From an uncultured Saprospiraceae bacterium (GTDB taxonomy: Bacteria; Bacteroidota; Bacteroidia; Chitinophagales; Saprospiraceae), in the NCBI GenBank assembly GCA_938015595.1, contig CALLPI010000008.1, positions 310,001-374,000 of the forward strand: 64,000 nucleotides of DNA. Direction: 5' to 3'. The notes beneath the pieces are model-generated. The model ran no database searches. It worked only from the letters and a program-made list of their open reading frames with translations, and was not told where the DNA came from. Positions within the stretch are counted from its first letter, which is position 1. The number at the start of each line of letters is the position of its first letter. Shown here piece after piece: positions 51,681 through 60,303 of this stretch. A program made the position numbers and the translations under genes.

Positions 51681-53507
51681 TTAATGCACTACCACTAGTT
51701 GCTTGCCAATCAAGTACTTGCCATCGCTTAGGCTCAGGGTGTAGGTGCCGGCAGGTAGTTGCGAGACGTTGAGTTGCAGATTGTTCAGGGAGTCAAAGCG
51801 CTGTTGCATGACCTGGCGGCCCTGGTGGTCAAACACCAGAACTTGCAGATTTTGCCCCATGCGATCGGAGTCAATTAAGATGGTCACTTGGCTAGTGGCC
51901 GGGTTGGGTACGAGTTTGATGGCAGAGGGGTCAAGCAGGTCTTCGCGGGTGGAGGATACTGGTGAGAAAACGTATTCGCCACTAAGAGAGTTGAAAACCA
52001 CGCTGTAAGTACCAGCTACGGGGCGTATGTTAGGTCCGTCCTGACGGCCTACGCCGCTGGGGAAGTCAATAGAGCCCCAGTTGACCGTCCAGGAGGTATC
52101 GGCGCGGAACTTGACGCCGCCATCGGTATCATCAGCGAAGTTGCGCAGGGTTACGCTGGCGAGTGTCCAGCGGTGAGGGTCTTCAGGGTCTTTGGCCATG
52201 AATAGGTCGCGTGCGCCGCCATCGCCGGGTTCGGGCCAGGAGTTGAAGGGGCCAGACTTGCCCACGAGGCTTACGGCACGGTATTCAAATACTTCCTCAA
52301 AGGAGTAAGCGCCAGTGGTGGAGTTGAAGGTAATGCGATATTCGCCACCTACCACCGGAATATTGGGGCCATCTTGAGTAGCTACACCGGTAGGGAAGGT
52401 ACCGCCGCCCCAGTTGATAGCCCAGTCATTGTTAGCACGAAACTTAGCCTCACCGGTGTTGAGTACAATGCGCAAGCGCCAAATGGAGCGGTCATTGGCA
52501 TCCTGGGTCATAGGGGTGTCAGTATCCCAGCCGCCGGGGGTGGCATCGCCAATAATACTAACGGTGTTGTAGTTGCCAATAACGAGGAAGCTGTAAGCCA
52601 AGTTGCTGGTATTGAAGGTGACCAGGTAGTCGCCAGAATCAGGAATCATAATGTTGGGGCCATTGAGTTCGCCTACGCCGGAGGGAAAAGCATTGCCGCC
52701 CCAGTTGATGGCCCAGCTATTATTGGCGCGAAACTTCACTTCGCCGACGCTGAGCGTCACATTACCACGCCACACGTTAGGATCGTTGGCATCGCGGTTC
52801 AGGGGAGTGTCTTCTCCCCAGCCGCCAGCAGTAGCGCTGCCGATGAGGCTGATGGAGGTAAAGTCCACTTGTTCTACGAAGTTGTAAGCACCAGTAGACT
52901 TGTTGAAGGTAATATTGTACTTGCCGGCAGCCGCTACCGGGATATTAGGGCCATTCTGCACACCAATGCCAGAGGGGAAGCTATCAGCGCCCCAGTTTAC
53001 ATCCCAACTGCCGTTAGCGCGGAATTTGCACTCGGCCTGAGTGAGGTTAAGGGTTAGATAGTAGCTATTGGTATCGGTTTGATCTTGGAACATAAATACT
53101 TCACGGCTCCAGCCGAAGGGTGTGGCACTGCCGATGATGCCAATATCAGAGGAGGTCAGGTCGAAGAAGTACTCCCCTGTAGCCGAGTTGAACGTGATGT
53201 TGTATGATCCCCCTATGATGGTAATGTTGGGGCCGTTTTGCACGCCTGTGCCAAAGGGGAATCCGGTAGCGCCCCAGTTGATGTCCCAATTGCCATTGGC
53301 GCGAAACTTAGCCTCACCATTGCTTAGCGTAATGCTAAGGGTCCATTTGTTAGGGTCTTGTGCGTCCTGTACCATAGGGGTGTCGCTGCTCCAGCCGCCA
53401 GCGGTAGCCGTGCCGATGATACCCACTGAGTTGATTTGGCCGAAGGCAGCCAAGGTACAACCCAAGAAAAGTAAAGTAGATAGAACTTTTAACATGATAT
53501 TCGTCAT
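51681..53507 (-). CDS. T9SS protein with five SusE/SusF-type modules
   Basis: 608 residues. A Sec signal (KVLSTLLFLGCTLAAFGQ) without a lipobox is followed by five ~90-residue modules, each of the form IGxATxxGW, then DxxxW, GExKFRANxxWxxNWG, FPxGxG, GPNI and YxxTFNxxTGxYxF. The last module is the most diverged (GPFNSWPEPGDGG). The final ~80 residues are a T9SS type A domain (LVPNPATSQVTILID ... LPAGTYTLSLSDGKYLIGKQLVV). SusE and SusF bind alpha-glucan as outer-membrane lipoproteins; this one should reach the surface through T9SS. ATG 53495 is an alternative start. Divergent from susC. Confidence 0.88.
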   Translation of the reverse strand: MTNIMLKVLSTLLFLGCTLAAFGQINSVGIIGTATAGGWSSDTPMVQDAQDPNKWTLSITLSNGEAKFRANGNWDINWGATGFPFGTGVQNGPNITIIGGSYNITFNSATGEYFFDLTSSDIGIIGSATPFGWSREVFMFQDQTDTNSYYLTLNLTQAECKFRANGSWDVNWGADSFPSGIGVQNGPNIPVAAAGKYNITFNKSTGAYNFVEQVDFTSISLIGSATAGGWGEDTPLNRDANDPNVWRGNVTLSVGEVKFRANNSWAINWGGNAFPSGVGELNGPNIMIPDSGDYLVTFNTSNLAYSFLVIGNYNTVSIIGDATPGGWDTDTPMTQDANDRSIWRLRIVLNTGEAKFRANNDWAINWGGGTFPTGVATQDGPNIPVVGGEYRITFNSTTGAYSFEEVFEYRAVSLVGKSGPFNSWPEPGDGGARDLFMAKDPEDPHRWTLASVTLRNFADDTDGGVKFRADTSWTVNWGSIDFPSGVGRQDGPNIRPVAGTYSVVFNSLSGEYVFSPVSSTREDLLDPSAIKLVPNPATSQVTILIDSDRMGQNLQVLVFDHQGRQVMQQRFDSLNNLQLNVSQLPAGTYTLSLSDGKYLIGKQLVVVH

Positions 53508-53611: not shown

Positions 53612-56572
53612 ATGAATGTCAATAACTTACATTCACGGTTAATATATTGGCCAGTTGTACTGATTTTGCTTTTGCCTTCGGGGCTATGGGCGCAGCGCAC
53701 CATTACTGGCTTAGTAAAGGACAAAGCCTCCGGCGAGCCGCTTATCGGGGCTTCGGTAGTGGACCGCGACAATACCTCGCGCGGCACAATTACTGAGTTT
53801 GACGGGACCTTTGAACTGAAAGTGCCCGAAACTACCGTAGCCTTGCGCATTAGCTACACTGGCTACACTTCGGTGGATGTCTCTATCGTGGGCACAGACA
53901 AGGTGGAAGTAGCCCTTGAGGCTGGCAAGGTGCTTACCGAAGTGGTGGTCATTGGGTATGGGACGGTGCGCCGTGAAGACGTGACTGGCTCGCTTCAAAC
54001 TGTTAGCACCCGCGACTTCAACCGAGGTGCCATCACCAGCCCACAGGAACTCCTGGCTGGCAAAGTACCCGGTGTGGCTATTACTACTGGCGGTGGCCCT
54101 GACGATGGCGCCCAAATTCGCATCCGAGGCGAATCTTCGCTGGGCGCTTCCAACGACCCGCTCATTGTTGTAGATGGCATCCCGCTGGATGGCGGTGGCG
54201 TGGCCGGCAATCGCAACCCTCTCAATGTCATCAACCCTAATGACGTAGAATCCATAACCGTGCTGAAAGATGCCTCGGCTACAGCCATATACGGCAGCCG
54301 GGCGGCGGGCGGCGTCATCATTATTACTACCAAAAAAGGCGCAGCAGGATCGGCGCTTAAGGTCAACTACAATGGCAACGTATCCTGGGGCAATACCTCC
54401 AATCGTGTGGACGTACTCAATGCCAATGAGTTTCGCGAAATCCTGGCGCAGAAATTTCCTGATCAGGTCGGCCTCATGGGTAATGCTAATACGGACTGGC
54501 AGTCAGAGATCTATCGCACCGCCTTTGCTACCGACCATAGCCTCAGCCTTTCGGGTGCGTACAAGGTGCTGCCGTATCGCGTCTCATTGGGTTACACCAC
54601 TAAAGACGGCTTGCTCAAAAACGACAATTTCAGCCGCTATACGGCGGGTATCAACCTTTCGCCAGGTTTTTTGAAAAATACTTTACAGGTAAACGTTGGC
54701 TTTAAAGGCATGCTTACCAAAAATATTTTTGCCGAGCGCGGTGCCATTGGAGCTGCACTAAGCTTTGACCCCACCCAGCCTGTGTTTGACCCCAATAGCC
54801 AGTACTCCGGCTACCGGGTGTGGACGCTGCCCAATGGCAACCCCAACGGCTTGGCGCCGGCTAATCCTGTTTCGCTGCTAGACCCTAACCTACGCGACGA
54901 CCGCTCTACCGTGCAACGCTACATTCTCAATGCTTCATTGGACTATCGCCTGCCTTTCTTGCCCAACTTGCGCACTCACCTCAACCTTGGCTATGACTAC
55001 TCGCTTGGCGAGGGCACGCTCAAGATCCCTGGGGGCAATGTAGTGGCTTTTTCCTTCGACCCTATCAATGGCGGTGGCCGCGATAACTCCTACAGCCAAA
55101 AGCGCACTAATGAGGTGCTGGAGTTTTACCTTAACTACAAGACCAATCTCGGCAGCAAGCACAGCCTCGACGTCATGGGCGGCTACTCCTGGCAGCACTT
55201 CTACAACGAAAACTCCTTCCGCAATGCCAACGCTGCCAATACGCCCTCCGAAGTGGTAGAGCGCAAGAACATTGCCAATGAGCTGTACCTCATCTCGTTG
55301 TTTTCCCGCGCCAACTACAGCTTCAACAACCGCTACCTGCTTACCCTCACCCTGCGCGGCGACGCCACCTCGCGCTTCGCGCCGGAGAACCGCTGGGGGC
55401 TGTTTCCTGCAGTGGCCGCTGCCATCAAAATCATTGACAACAACAACAACACCTTCAACAACTTAAAACTACGCGCCGGATGGGGCATTACCGGTCAGCA
55501 AGACATCGGCAGCCCCTACGTGTATCAAGCCCGCTATCAAGTTGGCCTGGACAACGCCCGCTATCAGTTTGGTGACAACTTTATCAATACCTTCCGCCCC
55601 AACGGCTACGACCGCAACATCAAGTGGGAAGAAACCGCTACCTCCAACATCGGCTTTGATTTTTCCATTGTCAAAAACAGGCTCTCCGGCTCGCTCGACC
55701 TCTACGAACGCCGCACCAAGGATTTGCTCAACTTCATCCCTGTGCCCGCTGGTACCAACTTGACTAATTTTATTGAAACCAACATCGGGAGTATGGTAAA
55801 CCGCGGGGTAGAACTGGCGCTGACTACTTCACCCATTGCCTCTTCCAAAGTGCGCTGGGATCTGAGTACTAATGTAGCCTACAACTACAACGAGATCACC
55901 AAGCTAACTGCCACTGCCGACTCCACCTACAAAGGCGTGCTCACCGGGGGCATAGCTGGTGGCGTGGGCAGCAATATCCAGATTCACAGCGTAGGCTATG
56001 CGCCCCGCTCGTTCTATGTCTTCATGCAATTGTACGACGAAAACGGCAAATTGCTGGAGCGCCAGTACGCTGACCTCAATGGCGATGGTGTAGTTAACGA
56101 CGACGACAAGTACCGCTACAAGAAGCCTGCACCGGACTACCTCGTCGGCATCACCAGCAACTTGAGCATTGGCAAGTTGGATTTCTCCTTTGCAGGGCGA
56201 GCCAATATCGGCAGCTATGTGTACAATAACGTTGCTACAGACATGGGCTACTACCAAAGGCTCTTCCACCCCACGCTTTATCTCCAGAACATACACCGCT
56301 CGGCTGTGATAAACAACATCAACAACCAGGCGGGAGCCACCTTCAGTGATCACTTCGTGACCGACGCCTCCTTCTTCCGCATTGACCACTTCACGCTCGG
56401 CTACAGCTTTGACAAGCTCGTGGGCGATTATCTGCGCGTGTATACCACTGTACAGAATCCGTTTGTCATTACCCGATACCAAGGGCTGGATCCCGAAATT
56501 AGCAATGGGATTGATAATAATATCTACCCACGCCCGCGAACCTTCCTCTTTGGCTTGAATGTTACTTTCTAA
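53612..56572 (+). CDS. susC: SusC/RagA TonB-linked outer membrane transporter
   Basis: 986 residues. Signal peptide to LWAQ (about 28), carboxypeptidase-regulatory-like N-terminal domain (TITGLVKDKASGEPLIGASV), TonB box region before YGTVRREDVTGS, plug domain (IRIRGESSLGASNDPLIVVDGIPLDGGG and VLKDASATAIYGSRAAGGVIIITTKKG) and a 22-stranded barrel ending in YPRPRTFLFGLNVTF with terminal Phe. It forms a lid-gated channel with the SusD-like protein encoded 22 bases downstream. Likely substrate is an oligosaccharide, since the partners carry SusE/F-type glucan-binding modules. Confidence 0.96.
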   Translation: MNVNNLHSRLIYWPVVLILLLPSGLWAQRTITGLVKDKASGEPLIGASVVDRDNTSRGTITEFDGTFELKVPETTVALRISYTGYTSVDVSIVGTDKVEVALEAGKVLTEVVVIGYGTVRREDVTGSLQTVSTRDFNRGAITSPQELLAGKVPGVAITTGGGPDDGAQIRIRGESSLGASNDPLIVVDGIPLDGGGVAGNRNPLNVINPNDVESITVLKDASATAIYGSRAAGGVIIITTKKGAAGSALKVNYNGNVSWGNTSNRVDVLNANEFREILAQKFPDQVGLMGNANTDWQSEIYRTAFATDHSLSLSGAYKVLPYRVSLGYTTKDGLLKNDNFSRYTAGINLSPGFLKNTLQVNVGFKGMLTKNIFAERGAIGAALSFDPTQPVFDPNSQYSGYRVWTLPNGNPNGLAPANPVSLLDPNLRDDRSTVQRYILNASLDYRLPFLPNLRTHLNLGYDYSLGEGTLKIPGGNVVAFSFDPINGGGRDNSYSQKRTNEVLEFYLNYKTNLGSKHSLDVMGGYSWQHFYNENSFRNANAANTPSEVVERKNIANELYLISLFSRANYSFNNRYLLTLTLRGDATSRFAPENRWGLFPAVAAAIKIIDNNNNTFNNLKLRAGWGITGQQDIGSPYVYQARYQVGLDNARYQFGDNFINTFRPNGYDRNIKWEETATSNIGFDFSIVKNRLSGSLDLYERRTKDLLNFIPVPAGTNLTNFIETNIGSMVNRGVELALTTSPIASSKVRWDLSTNVAYNYNEITKLTATADSTYKGVLTGGIAGGVGSNIQIHSVGYAPRSFYVFMQLYDENGKLLERQYADLNGDGVVNDDDKYRYKKPAPDYLVGITSNLSIGKLDFSFAGRANIGSYVYNNVATDMGYYQRLFHPTLYLQNIHRSAVINNINNQAGATFSDHFVTDASFFRIDHFTLGYSFDKLVGDYLRVYTTVQNPFVITRYQGLDPEISNGIDNNIYPRPRTFLFGLNVTF

Positions 56573-56594
56573 GTGTGCAAAAAGATTCCCTGCC

Positions 56595-58778
56595 ATGAAA
56601 AATATAAAATCACTTCCTCTCCTCATCCTACTGACGTTTGCGGCAGTGGGTTGCTTCAAAGACCTGGATACCGCACCCCTTGACCCACTGGAAGTTACCT
56701 CCGGTACGGTGTATAACGACCCTGCGGCCTACAAAAAAGTACTGGCCAAACTATACGCTGGCCTGGCAGTAACTGGCCAGGAAGGCCCCTCCGGCCAAGC
56801 CGACATCTCCGGTATTGACGAAGGCTTTGGCCAGTACCTACGAGGCTACTGGTACCACCAGGAGCTGACCACCGACGAAGCTATCATTGGCTGGAACGAC
56901 CAGACCATCCACGATTTTCACAACCAAAGCTGGACAGCTGGCGATGGATTCATCTTTGCTTTTTACAGTCGCATTTTTTATCAAATATCCCTGTGTAACG
57001 AATTTCTGCGCGAGACTACCGACGCCAAACTCAACAGCCGGGGGGTGAGCGGTACGCTGCGCAACGAAATTGCCAGCTATCGCGCAGAGGCGCGTTTCCT
57101 GCGAGCGCTTAGCTACTGGCACGCGCTTGACCTGTTTCGCAACGTACCTTTTGTAACTGAACAGGACGCTGTGGGTGCTTTCTTCCCCCGGCAGATCAAC
57201 GCCAATGACCTGTTCAAATACATTGAGGAAGAACTGCTGGCCATTGAGCCTCAGATTGCAGCACCCCGAACCAACGAGTACGCCCGTGCTGATCGCGCTG
57301 CCGTATGGATGCTACTGGCCAAGCTCTACCTCAACGCCCAGGTTTATACTGGTCAGGCGCGTTTTGCCGACTGCCTCAACTACGCCGAGCGCGTGATCAA
57401 TGCAGGCTACACGCTAGAGCCAGAGTACCAGCATCTATTCCTGGCCGATAACCACCGCTCGCGCGAGATCATCTTCCCCGTAGCTTTTGACGGCATCAAC
57501 ACCCGCACTTGGGGGGGCATGACTTTTATCATCAATGCAGCTATTGGGGGCAATATCAACCCCGCCGAACTGGGTATGGGCGGCGGCTGGGGGGGGACTC
57601 GCGCCGTGAGGGAGTTTGTCCTCAAATTCCCCGAGAGCGAGGGAGGCCTAGTAGCATCACCCAACCCCGGTCAGACGGCCACCTACCCCAAGTTGTATGT
57701 GCCTGGCTCGCATCAGGGCAACAACCCTACCGAGACAGCCAACTCGCTGTCATCACCTCTGCGCAACAACATCTTCGAGGGCTACAAATTCTTCCCCGAC
57801 CCCAACACCACCATCCGCTTCACCCGTATCCCCTCTTCTACAGCTCCTATCTATGGCGATAACGACGCCGACGGCCGTCTTGAACTCAATGGTGCTCCCG
57901 TGGTAGTGCCTACGGCTGGCCTGCACTACATCCGTGTGAACTGGAACCAACTCACCTACGAAATTGTGCGCCGCGACTGGTTCGTGACGGGGCCTGGCGT
58001 ATCCGGTGGCCAGCCCGTGCCTATGACCTGGGATGCCAATGCCCGAGCCATGCGCGCTAACTTAGATATGACCGCCGAGGGGTTTCGCTTTCAAAGCTCT
58101 GACCCCAATGTGAACCTCGGCGATAATGCTGGCGACGGCATCTTGACTCAGGATGGTGCCAACATCATGCGCATCCCAGCCAGCGGCACGTATCAGATCC
58201 TGCTCTTCCTCAACCAGCCTGATTATACCTACCAGATTAACTCTACTTCCTTCGACCGCCGTGGCATCTTCCACCGCTCCGGCCAAACACTGGATATTGA
58301 CGACATCACCCGCTTCACCCAAGGCATTGCCGTGAAGAAGTTCAAAAACATAACTTCTACTGGCCAGCGGGGATCCAACGCTACCTTCCCTGACACGGAC
58401 TTCCCAATGTTCCGCTTGGCTGATGCCTACCTCATGGCAGCTGAGGCCATCCTGCGCGGCGGCGGCAACCAAAATAAGGCACTAGAATATGTAAATGCCG
58501 TGCGCAACCGAGCCTTTAAAGGCACTGCAGGTCACATTACGCCTGCTCAACTCACGCTCGACTTCATCCTGGATGAGCGTGCACGTGAACTCTACTGGGA
58601 ATGCCACCGCCGTACAGACCTCATCCGTTTCAACAAGTTCAGCCAGTCTGATTACCTATGGCAGTGGAAAGGTGGTGTCAAAGAAGGCCGCTCGGTGGAT
58701 ACTTATCGCAACGTCTTTCCCATACCTAGCGCAGACCTCAACGCTAACCCGAATTTGAAACAAAATACTGGGTACTGA
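56595..58778 (+). CDS. susD: SusD/RagB lipoprotein with inserted SusE/F-type modules
   Basis: 727 residues from ATG 56595, lipoprotein signal with Cys near residue 20 (FAAVGCFKDLDTAPLDP). The SusD TPR scaffold is present N-terminally (YRAEARFLRALSYWHALDLFRNVPFVTE) and C-terminally (RLADAYLMAAEAILRGGGNQNKALEYVNAVRNRA, FILDERARELYWECHRRTDLIRF). About residues 364-547 do not belong to a standard SusD: LYVPGSHQGNNPTETA ... YEI and WFVTGPGVSGGQPVPMTWDANA ... YQI read as two SusE/SusF-type starch-binding modules. Without them the length is the usual ~545. Confidence 0.93.
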   Translation: MKNIKSLPLLILLTFAAVGCFKDLDTAPLDPLEVTSGTVYNDPAAYKKVLAKLYAGLAVTGQEGPSGQADISGIDEGFGQYLRGYWYHQELTTDEAIIGWNDQTIHDFHNQSWTAGDGFIFAFYSRIFYQISLCNEFLRETTDAKLNSRGVSGTLRNEIASYRAEARFLRALSYWHALDLFRNVPFVTEQDAVGAFFPRQINANDLFKYIEEELLAIEPQIAAPRTNEYARADRAAVWMLLAKLYLNAQVYTGQARFADCLNYAERVINAGYTLEPEYQHLFLADNHRSREIIFPVAFDGINTRTWGGMTFIINAAIGGNINPAELGMGGGWGGTRAVREFVLKFPESEGGLVASPNPGQTATYPKLYVPGSHQGNNPTETANSLSSPLRNNIFEGYKFFPDPNTTIRFTRIPSSTAPIYGDNDADGRLELNGAPVVVPTAGLHYIRVNWNQLTYEIVRRDWFVTGPGVSGGQPVPMTWDANARAMRANLDMTAEGFRFQSSDPNVNLGDNAGDGILTQDGANIMRIPASGTYQILLFLNQPDYTYQINSTSFDRRGIFHRSGQTLDIDDITRFTQGIAVKKFKNITSTGQRGSNATFPDTDFPMFRLADAYLMAAEAILRGGGNQNKALEYVNAVRNRAFKGTAGHITPAQLTLDFILDERARELYWECHRRTDLIRFNKFSQSDYLWQWKGGVKEGRSVDTYRNVFPIPSADLNANPNLKQNTGY

Positions 58779-58965: not shown

Positions 58966-60303
58966 TCATCCTTCTGCCAGCGTGCGCGAAATATCAGTCA
59001 TTCCTGCTCGGATGGCAGGAATCAGCGCCGCTATTGTTCCAATAGCCAGTACTGCGGCGATCAAGCTCCATTCCTGAGGTAAGAAGGTCAGACCGGTGAA
59101 GGTATAGCGATAAGTGTCTTGCATGGCGACAGCCAGCCACTCCATGCCCAGGTGCCCCAGGATCAGCCCCAGCGTCAGGCCGGCCAGCGCCAGCATTAGC
59201 CCTTCGAGCAAAATGAGTGCCACCAGGCGCAACCGCGAAGCACCCATCACGCGCATGAGCGCCAGTTCGTAGCGTCGTTCGTCTAGCGAATTGAACAAAG
59301 AGATGAAAATACTCAGCCCGGATACGGCAATGATGACAAGCGCCAAAATGCGCAAGGCATCGGCGCCCAGCCCCATGAGGCTTTGCAGTCGGGTGATTTC
59401 AATGGCAGGCGTGGCGGCTTGCATGTTGGTGTTCTCATTGATGCTGCGCTGCATGTTCAGCGTCTGGGCGTTGCGGCCTTTGAACAGTATCAGGATAGAG
59501 GTGATGGCCTTATCGGTTTGCTCGTGCAAAGGCAGGGCCGACATTGGCACAGTGCCCTGCTTTTCTGCTTCGTGGTCGTGATGCGCGTGGTCATGTTCGG
59601 CGTCATGGTCGGCGTCATGGTCGGCGTCATGGTCAGCGTCATGGTCAGCATCATGGTCGGCGTCATGGTCGGCGTGGCTGTCGTGTATGGCCCATATACT
59701 TTCGGTAGGCGTCACGAGCAATTGATCAATAACAGTACCAGTAGGTTGGAGTATACCGACCACGCGAAAGGCTTGCGCATCTTCATGCACGAGATTGTCG
59801 TCCATAACAAAGCCGTGCGAACTTTGAAAAGTATCGTCAACTTTCAGGCCTAGTTTTTGTGCTACGATGGCACCGGCTACTACCTCGAAAGGTTTTTCCC
59901 AGGAGCGGCCTTGCTGGAGGGTAGCTTTATAGAGTTCAATAAACTGCGGCGTAGTGCCCACTATGCGATACCCGCGGTAGCTGTCGCCCAACGATAAGGG
60001 AATAGCCGTTTGAATATAGGGGTGTTTAGGGTTGAGAAAGGCTTTGGCTTCTGCAATAGAAATGTTGCCAGTGGGGGCATCCACGTGGTACATGCTGCTG
60101 AGGATGAGTTGTAGAGGGCTGCCCTTAGCACCGATGATGAGATCAATGCCGGCCAGGTTTTTCTCAAATTTTTGCTGGAGTTGGTGGTCAATGAGCAGCA
60201 GCAGTACAATCAGGCCGGAGCCCAAGGCTAAAAGCACTAAATTGAGCAGTAGTGTTAGCGGCTTGTAGCGCAGATTCTTCCAACTAAGCAGTAGCAGGTT
60301 CAT
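58966..60303 (-). CDS. FtsX/MacB-type ABC permease with His-Asp repeat tract
   Basis: 445 residues. One N-terminal span (about 14-37), a large periplasmic domain, and three C-terminal spans with the FtsX pattern (LALMRVMGASRLRLVALILLEGLMLALAG). In the periplasmic domain, about residues 205-245, is a tract of repeated DHDA units followed by EHDHAHHDHEAE, about 16 His and as many Asp/Glu. It is encoded by a 12-base tandem repeat. The tract should bind metal such as zinc. The gene overlaps its ATPase gene by four bases (ATGA). Similar His-rich permeases occur in putative zinc ABC systems; that role here is inference. Confidence 0.92.
   Translation of the reverse strand: MNLLLLSWKNLRYKPLTLLLNLVLLALGSGLIVLLLLIDHQLQQKFEKNLAGIDLIIGAKGSPLQLILSSMYHVDAPTGNISIAEAKAFLNPKHPYIQTAIPLSLGDSYRGYRIVGTTPQFIELYKATLQQGRSWEKPFEVVAGAIVAQKLGLKVDDTFQSSHGFVMDDNLVHEDAQAFRVVGILQPTGTVIDQLLVTPTESIWAIHDSHADHDADHDADHDADHDADHDADHDAEHDHAHHDHEAEKQGTVPMSALPLHEQTDKAITSILILFKGRNAQTLNMQRSINENTNMQAATPAIEITRLQSLMGLGADALRILALVIIAVSGLSIFISLFNSLDERRYELALMRVMGASRLRLVALILLEGLMLALAGLTLGLILGHLGMEWLAVAMQDTYRYTFTGLTFLPQEWSLIAAVLAIGTIAALIPAIRAGMTDISRTLAEG
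59590..59673. repeat. 12-base tandem repeat, seven units
   Basis: Seven consecutive units of GTCATGGTCGGC with single-base changes in four (G/T, G/A). On the minus strand each unit codes Ala-Asp-His-Asp in some phase. Perfect 12-mer periodicity means copy number can vary by slippage without frameshift. Confidence 0.9.

Follow-up and report, generated by a model that had tools for sequence, protein, structure and literature searches.

The systems closest to the locus treated here are the Sus proteins of Bacteroides thetaiotaomicron and the tandem X25 modules found on other starch-binding proteins. According to one account, SusE restores uptake independently of its own starch-binding sites (PMC9599597, citing Foley 2018), and an interaction of SusE with SusC/D is held there to be most probable. 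In the Sca5/Sas20 proteins a single maltooligosaccharide is reported to lie between the tandem X25 modules, and four tryptophans take part (PMC9112005). A module housed within another Sus protein is also on record, CBM58 being inserted within the SusG amylase (PMC11267923). SusE-type modules inside a SusD are undescribed in titles and abstract openings of the open-licence literature, among the matches listed. Here we describe a SusD of this kind, its relatives, and the locus states in which they occur.

Results

The SusD gene and its neighbours

The window (by which we mean the whole 64,000-nucleotide stretch of Saprospiraceae DNA that was analysed) holds a SusC-SusD pair and a divergent neighbour (Table 1). 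The SusD reading frame is uninterrupted from 56559 to 58778 on the forward strand, with a probable start at 56595, a length of 727 residues and a last codon ending at 58775; a 22-base gap separates this start from the end of SusC at 56572. Membership in the SusD/RagB family is evident from PF07980 (E 1.8e-35, 123.5 bits, cut-off 23.1) and from gene order, which places the lipoprotein beside SusC; lipidation is predicted, and C20 is invariant in 65 aligned relatives. The protein scores below the curated cut-off of the NCBI exception model NF033071 (444.6 bits vs 725). The model of the whole protein (pLDDT 88.7, pTM 0.79) has the SusD fold, superimposing on 3jys with Z 50.9 and rmsd 1.5 over 457 aligned residues, and on B. 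thetaiotaomicron SusD with maltoheptaose (3ck9) with Z 48.0 and rmsd 1.6 over 458.

The starch site of B. thetaiotaomicron SusD, which we take to consist of D73, R81, W96, W98, N101, Y296 and W320, corresponds by sequence alignment to D75, R83, I98, W100, D102, W306 and W332 of the window protein, four positions being identical (D75, R83, W100, W332), two similar and one replaced. Among relatives, D75, R83, W100, D102 and W332 are kept in 34/34 proteins from loci with SusE and in 43/43 from loci without it, while position 306 is W, Y or F and position 98 is I or V. The first residue of the insert lies 14 residues past W332.

The divergent neighbour, P0003, is matched by PF16411 in four stretches (E 1.2e-30) and by PF18962 (E 5.3e-12), and the insert profile matches it five times. 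Across the genome of the window, this five-module protein is the only one that PF16411 finds. A separate observation concerns window positions 58966-60303, which encode a predicted protein with a His-Ala/Asp repeat run (HADHDADHD...), possibly metal-binding.

Table 1. Features of the SusCD locus, in window positions.
Feature	Position	Strand	Remarks
P0003, secreted five-module SusE/F-type protein with type IX secretion C-terminal tail	51681..53507	-	divergent from SusC
SusC TonB-dependent transporter	53612..56572	+	TIGR04056, 722.9 bits vs cut-off 368.25
SusD, predicted lid lipoprotein with insert	56595..58778	+	PF07980; 727 aa and stop
W332 codon	57588..57590	+	aligns with W320 of B. thetaiotaomicron SusD; W in 34/34 and 43/43 relatives
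Insert linker, residues 346-364	57630..57686	+	whole insert corresponds to 6-23 residues in insert-free relatives
Insert module 1, residues 365-459	57687..57971	+	counterpart of penultimate SusE module; 2wan match
Insert module 2, residues 460-551	57972..58247	+	counterpart of last SusE module; 7rpy match

Extent and spread of the insert

Residues 39-345 and 552-727 of the window SusD align with 3jys, and because the latter has only about 12 residues between these halves, the extra block amounts to about 200 residues. The initial annotation had proposed one block of some 180 additional residues at 57684-58240, made up of two SusE/SusF-type modules. The extra residues do form a single block, slightly larger than proposed, and the proposed span falls close to module limits (57687-58247) that come from structural matches on the predicted insert model. 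Two of the motifs on which the proposal drew reflect real homology, LYVPGSHQGNNP corresponding to VPGSYQGWxP and DGANIMRIPASGTYQILLF to GANIxIxEAGNYTIxLxL of SusE.

Of 101 orthologues from whole-genome loci, 80 have 203-219 extra residues in the loop, 20 have 6-20 and one has 141; in 74 scored named loci (six of the 80 remained unscored, one SusD half being missing) the loop contains 203-218 residues in 48 and 7-23 in 26. These ratios are not frequencies, since loci were picked as best matches. The protein with 141 residues in the same loop (L048:10650-12653, 668 aa) shows no Pfam match to its insert. A scan of the family found a SusD match at E <=1e-60 in 145/298 genomes and a match spanning the insert in 80/298, three more being cut by contig ends. 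Saprospiraceae is the label on most named records bearing the insert; further labels are Lewinellaceae, Saprospirales, Chitinophagales, Bacteroidetes and Bacteroidota, together with one Aureispira (L198) and one Chlorobiota (L190).

Homology and predicted fold

The insert is a homologue of the C-terminal module pair of the SusE lipoprotein, minus the PF14292 domain. A profile of 80 inserts compared by hhalign with one of 20 SusE proteins gave probability 100 and E 1.1e-74 over 190 columns, insert columns 19-208 pairing with SusE columns 193-382, that is, with the last two modules. By BLAST among 1,581 frames the window insert finds SusE neighbours of its relatives, the best in L039 (37.7% identity, E 1.0e-29). 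PF16411 is matched by 50/80 inserts at E <=0.01 (best 1.5e-18) and PF22058 by 27/80; the window's own insert, searched alone, fails to match any SusE/F family of Pfam or NCBIfam, and against PDB sequences it returns nothing meaningful, its best matches there being to ribosomal S16 (E 0.27) and NusG (E 0.47). The 80-insert profile matches, among PDB sequences, only the SGBPdex protein BT3088 (two sequences), apart from a chance match to RelB. Five scanned SusE neighbours all have PF14292 and PF16411, and four of the five have an X25 match. The window SusD matches the SusE profile over profile positions 158-347 of 349 only, the N-terminal PF14292 domain being absent; the region has the tandem X25/SusF_SusE-type modules of SusE and sits within the SusD frame rather than in a separate surface lipoprotein.

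The predicted structure of the insert (pLDDT 95.7, pTM 0.90) agrees with this assignment. SusF (Z 11.6, rmsd 9.1, 176 aligned) and SusE (4fem; Z 10.9, rmsd 5.2, 171 aligned) tie as its best structural matches, while module 1 fits the X25 module of pullulanase (2wan) with Z 9.9 and rmsd 2.0 over 82 residues and module 2 fits X25-2 of Sca5 (7rpy) with Z 8.5 and rmsd 2.8 over 88. As single modules fit at rmsd 2.0-2.8 and pairs at 5.2-9.1, the angle between the modules would appear to differ. Foldseek gave modest TM-scores for the insert (0.29-0.46 among the top four rows), with 7rpy first. In a single-module tree of 98 rows, a drawn subset that includes 18 of the 96 two-module inserts and leaves out L222, L209, L226 and L217 SusE, the first modules of insert and SusE fall together, as do the second ones, and the split between the two groups has 100% SH-aLRT. 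Read most simply, these sequence relationships mean that both modules were copied together, with their order preserved.

Two SusE/SusF-type beta-sandwich modules are thus inserted as one unit, as the hhalign comparison, the model and the structural matches agree, and the result that might have overturned the initial proposal, a prediction resembling an ordinary SusD loop that lacks both this fold and any likeness to SusE/F, did not occur: the SusF/SusE fold scored best (Z 11.6, 10.9). An ordinary loop extension would find some encouragement in the fact that B. thetaiotaomicron SusD is longer here than 3jys and that the same site can hold different material, 87-88 or 141 residues long. Against this, and against an assembly artefact, stand the homology to SusE (E 1.1e-74) and the presence of the insert in many separate genomes; the structural matches and hhalign refute both, and the chance that either is correct is negligible.

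Two locus states

Loci with the two-module insert occur in two states. The first consists of SusC-SusD-SusE, sometimes accompanied by the five-module protein; the second, the window type, consists of SusC-SusD and the five-module protein without SusE, the five-module gene being mostly divergent from SusC and lying downstream of SusD in L134, L139 and L165. Among the 96 distinct inserts, 28 stand beside SusE, 44 beside the five-module protein alone and 6 beside both; a further 18, mostly close to contig ends, could not be assigned to a state and were excluded from the state comparison. One locus, L095, has a weak SusE match and was therefore added by hand to the group with SusE; the protein in question (L095:5734-7023), beside an insert-bearing SusD, scores 31 bits with the insert profile and matches the SusE profile partially, and is perhaps a decaying SusE.

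Among genomes selected according to locus layout, a near-full-length match to the SusE profile is present in 30/31 of the first state, the remaining one having a partial match, and in 0/39 window-type genomes; up to 29 candidates were scored per genome at E 1e-25, a search that a strongly diverged SusE could escape, and completeness is below 90% for six of the 39. On the tree of insert-bearing SusDs, SusE is lost only once (99%; one independent pair). The five-module protein was matched (E 1e-40) in 6/6 window-type genomes tested, in 6/31 with SusE and in 0/8 without the insert, a distribution from which loci with both SusE and the five-module protein look transitional. In L035 and L090 the relatives of the five-module protein (908 aa) are matched by the insert profile eight times rather than five.

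The same distribution might be read to mean that the insert docks a protein partner, such as a surface enzyme or the five-module protein, and that this partner brings cut glucan to the gate. The five-module protein adjoins SusCD in all 44 classified window-type loci and follows the window type in the genome counts just given; its presence, however, was itself used in forming the window-type group, and 25/31 genomes with insert and SusE have no five-module match, so that docking is unlikely as the original reason for the insert. We consider it improbable overall.

Support for an alpha-glucan substrate comes from homology to starch SusD and SusE, to which GH13 neighbours add only in loci of other states. 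In a scan of 20 neighbour proteins across 10 loci, GH13 amylase genes turned up in three, all in states other than the window type: L246, L255 and L036, the last with three such genes. The genome that holds the window contains 11 GH13 matches, every one of them outside the window. GH53-family genes adjoin two other SusCD loci (L037:55-1347, L133:5009-6394).

Signature residues and selection

The starch-binding signature of X25/SusE modules comprises W, K and W in module 1 and W, K, R, N and W in module 2, residues that would bind glucan here by analogy with work on X25 and SusE. Taken in that order, they are present 46, 43 and 46 times in module 1 and 41, 39, 43, 41 and 40 times in module 2 of SusE (n=46); 27, 27 and 26 times in module 1 and 26 times each in module 2 of inserts beside SusE alone (n=28); and 3, 3 and 0 times in module 1 and 15, 19, 24, 30 and 15 times in module 2 of inserts of the window's clade (n=44). 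The six transitional inserts have lost the second W of module 1 in 5/6, and in module 2 retain a W in 5/6 and the other four positions in 6/6. The window insert has 0/8 signature residues, with N, R and S in module 1 and a gap, R, Q, S and a gap in module 2, although the replacement of both K positions by R is a mild change, and by this signature it does not qualify as a starch-binding X25/SusE module. Across the window's clade, mean retention is 0.31 at the eight signature columns vs 0.70 at 59 other conserved columns (p 0.0007, kinship uncorrected). As SusE loss is a single change, its link to signature decay amounts to one observation in one clade, and an independent-contrast test of SusE loss vs signature loss, with one event, had no power.

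These counts divide the functional part of the initial annotation, which had the modules alter how glycan is held at the gate. A glycan-holding role accords with the signature kept in inserts beside SusE, but the signature is mostly replaced in the window's clade; for the window's own copy, the holding of alpha-glucan by the insert finds no support, and it is SusD's own starch-site positions that are largely kept.

Selection nevertheless bears on the insert. Two close pairs, both made up of a window-type locus and an unclassified one, give an insert dN of 0.036 with dS 0.43 and of 0.033 with dS 0.50, and dN/dS is low in insert and core wherever dS is unsaturated; the fold of the insert is under purifying selection. 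Insert dN is 0.99-4.5 times core dN in 34 pairs from both states, many with saturated dS, so that relaxed constraint could explain part of the signature decay. Within the window's clade 36 insert positions are kept at >=80%, 30 of them occupied by Gly, Pro, Ala, aliphatic or Phe/Tyr residues, and conservation is 0.98 vs 0.43 in loci with SusE for Y368 and 0.86 vs 0.39 for N423.

That the insert is a decaying relic whose role has gone in the window's clade would suit the loss of the signature and the faster change of insert than core in most pairs. The low dN/dS of the unsaturated close pairs speaks against decay, as does a tightly held length (203-219 in 80/81 whole-genome loci with >40 extra residues), and we judge this reading very improbable. 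The same low dN/dS counts in favour of another view, that the insert in the window's clade still binds glycan, through a rebuilt site or as a binder of some other glycan, and so still gives the lid a platform for binding. The fold is predicted with high confidence, R and N of module 2 persist in 24/44 and 30/44 inserts, and Y368 and N423 are better conserved than beside SusE; yet 30 of the 36 well-kept positions are of residue types expected of a fold, and the module 1 signature survives in 3, 3 and 0 of 44. Continued binding seems to us unlikely, though it deserves more weight than the readings above.

Inserts at the same loop in other lineages

A scan of the phylum, in which 93 of 395 genomes gave a match at E 1e-80 and two candidates were scored per genome, turned up SusDs of about 620-670 residues; the search for long SusD homologues that the initial annotation had advised returned proteins of about 620-770 residues with two modules or one, always at the same loop. 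Twenty loci from the phylum or family scan were taken for loop comparison. Eight, from one family outside the window's class, have a single module-1-type insert of 117-150 extra residues in this loop; three, from one family of the window's class, have a single module-2-type insert of 101-111 residues there, one of which (L254) has a weak module match of 22 bits and lacks a Pfam match. The same loop holds 87-88 extra residues without module similarity in two loci (L257:6253-8124, L258:5817-7688) and 6-14 residues in the other seven. PF16411 was found in 5/6 one-module SusDs scanned, one of these five matches falling slightly under the cut-off; the sixth is L254.

All eight module-1-type inserts belong to a single clade (98/96), which is nested in a larger one (98/94) that also contains SusE modules from the same family. 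For module 2 the bootstrap is unsettled, and the three module-2-type inserts do not form one clade. A single origin was rejected both for all module 1 inserts (p-AU 0.0083, the long row L121 omitted) and for all module 2 inserts (p-AU 0.0050, the long row L120 omitted), in AU tests run after the larger module tree had been inspected. Their joint rejection implies at least two captures; on these sequence trees three are probable.

Descent of the two-module inserts was followed in trees of 46 of the 96 distinct inserts, near-identical sequences having been merged; the core tree was repeated without L222 and L213 and the pair tree without L222. The two-module inserts as one clade are not rejected (p-AU 0.84, the held tree of 46 rows being 28.65 log units better), and in the free tree 5/46 fall outside the largest all-insert clade. 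For the SusD cores of the same proteins one clade is weakly rejected (p-AU 0.039), and the core tree has three changes of insert label, or five without the two long rows. Two SusDs with two-module inserts (L189:5980-8199 and L190:2669-4885) have cores whose partners in the tree are insert-free SusDs from other lineages, a placement that suggests transfer, recombination or loss.

Discussion

The alternatives having been weighed against the evidence that bears on each, the reading that we prefer, and hold to be fairly probable, is that the insert was an additional starch-binding surface of the lid that turned into a built-in SusE with no need of that grip. In loci with SusE, the insert would add an alpha-glucan-binding surface to the mobile lid, the role in which it most likely arose. 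In the window's clade it would act as a built-in SusE for which classical starch binding is unneeded, its contribution perhaps being to shape the open lid, to hold it steady or to make contact with SusC, and glucan would be bound by SusD's own site and by the five-module protein. With the classical grip lost in the window's lineage, a lid-borne SusE acting without it is the best present reading. In its broadest form the proposal is a more tentative one: it is possible that the SusD loop past the last starch-site tryptophan is a recurrent slot where lineages of Bacteroidota insert copies of modules from their own SusE, and that fusion in the window's clade made SusE dispensable, leaving a SusE-like lid domain without starch grip.

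If this is true, the gating role of SusE has been separated in nature from its binding role. As the modules are fixed in position and number by their place in the lid, the geometry of lid and modules could be solved in one two-protein complex, and the sequenced species offer a testable series, from insert-free SusDs through insert with SusE to insert without SusE.

Viewed beside described systems, the window SusD has the same core fold as B. thetaiotaomicron SusD (3ck9) and 3jys; it differs from both in about 200 extra residues that make up two beta-sandwich modules in one loop, and from the former in the replacement of N101, Y296 and W96 by D102, W306 and I98. Tandem C-terminal modules are common to its insert and to SusE, both as solved (4fem, 4fch) and in its relatives' loci, but unlike SusE the insert has no PF14292 domain, is not a separate lipoprotein, and has lost the signature. 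Sca5/Sas20 of Ruminococcus bromii (7rpy) likewise has two X25-type modules in tandem; its hosts are scaffoldin or dockerin-bearing proteins rather than a transporter lid, and the window insert is without the signature tryptophans. The nearest likeness in arrangement is CBM58 of SusG, which, like the insert, is a module inside another Sus protein, although there the host is an enzyme and here it is the SusD lid.
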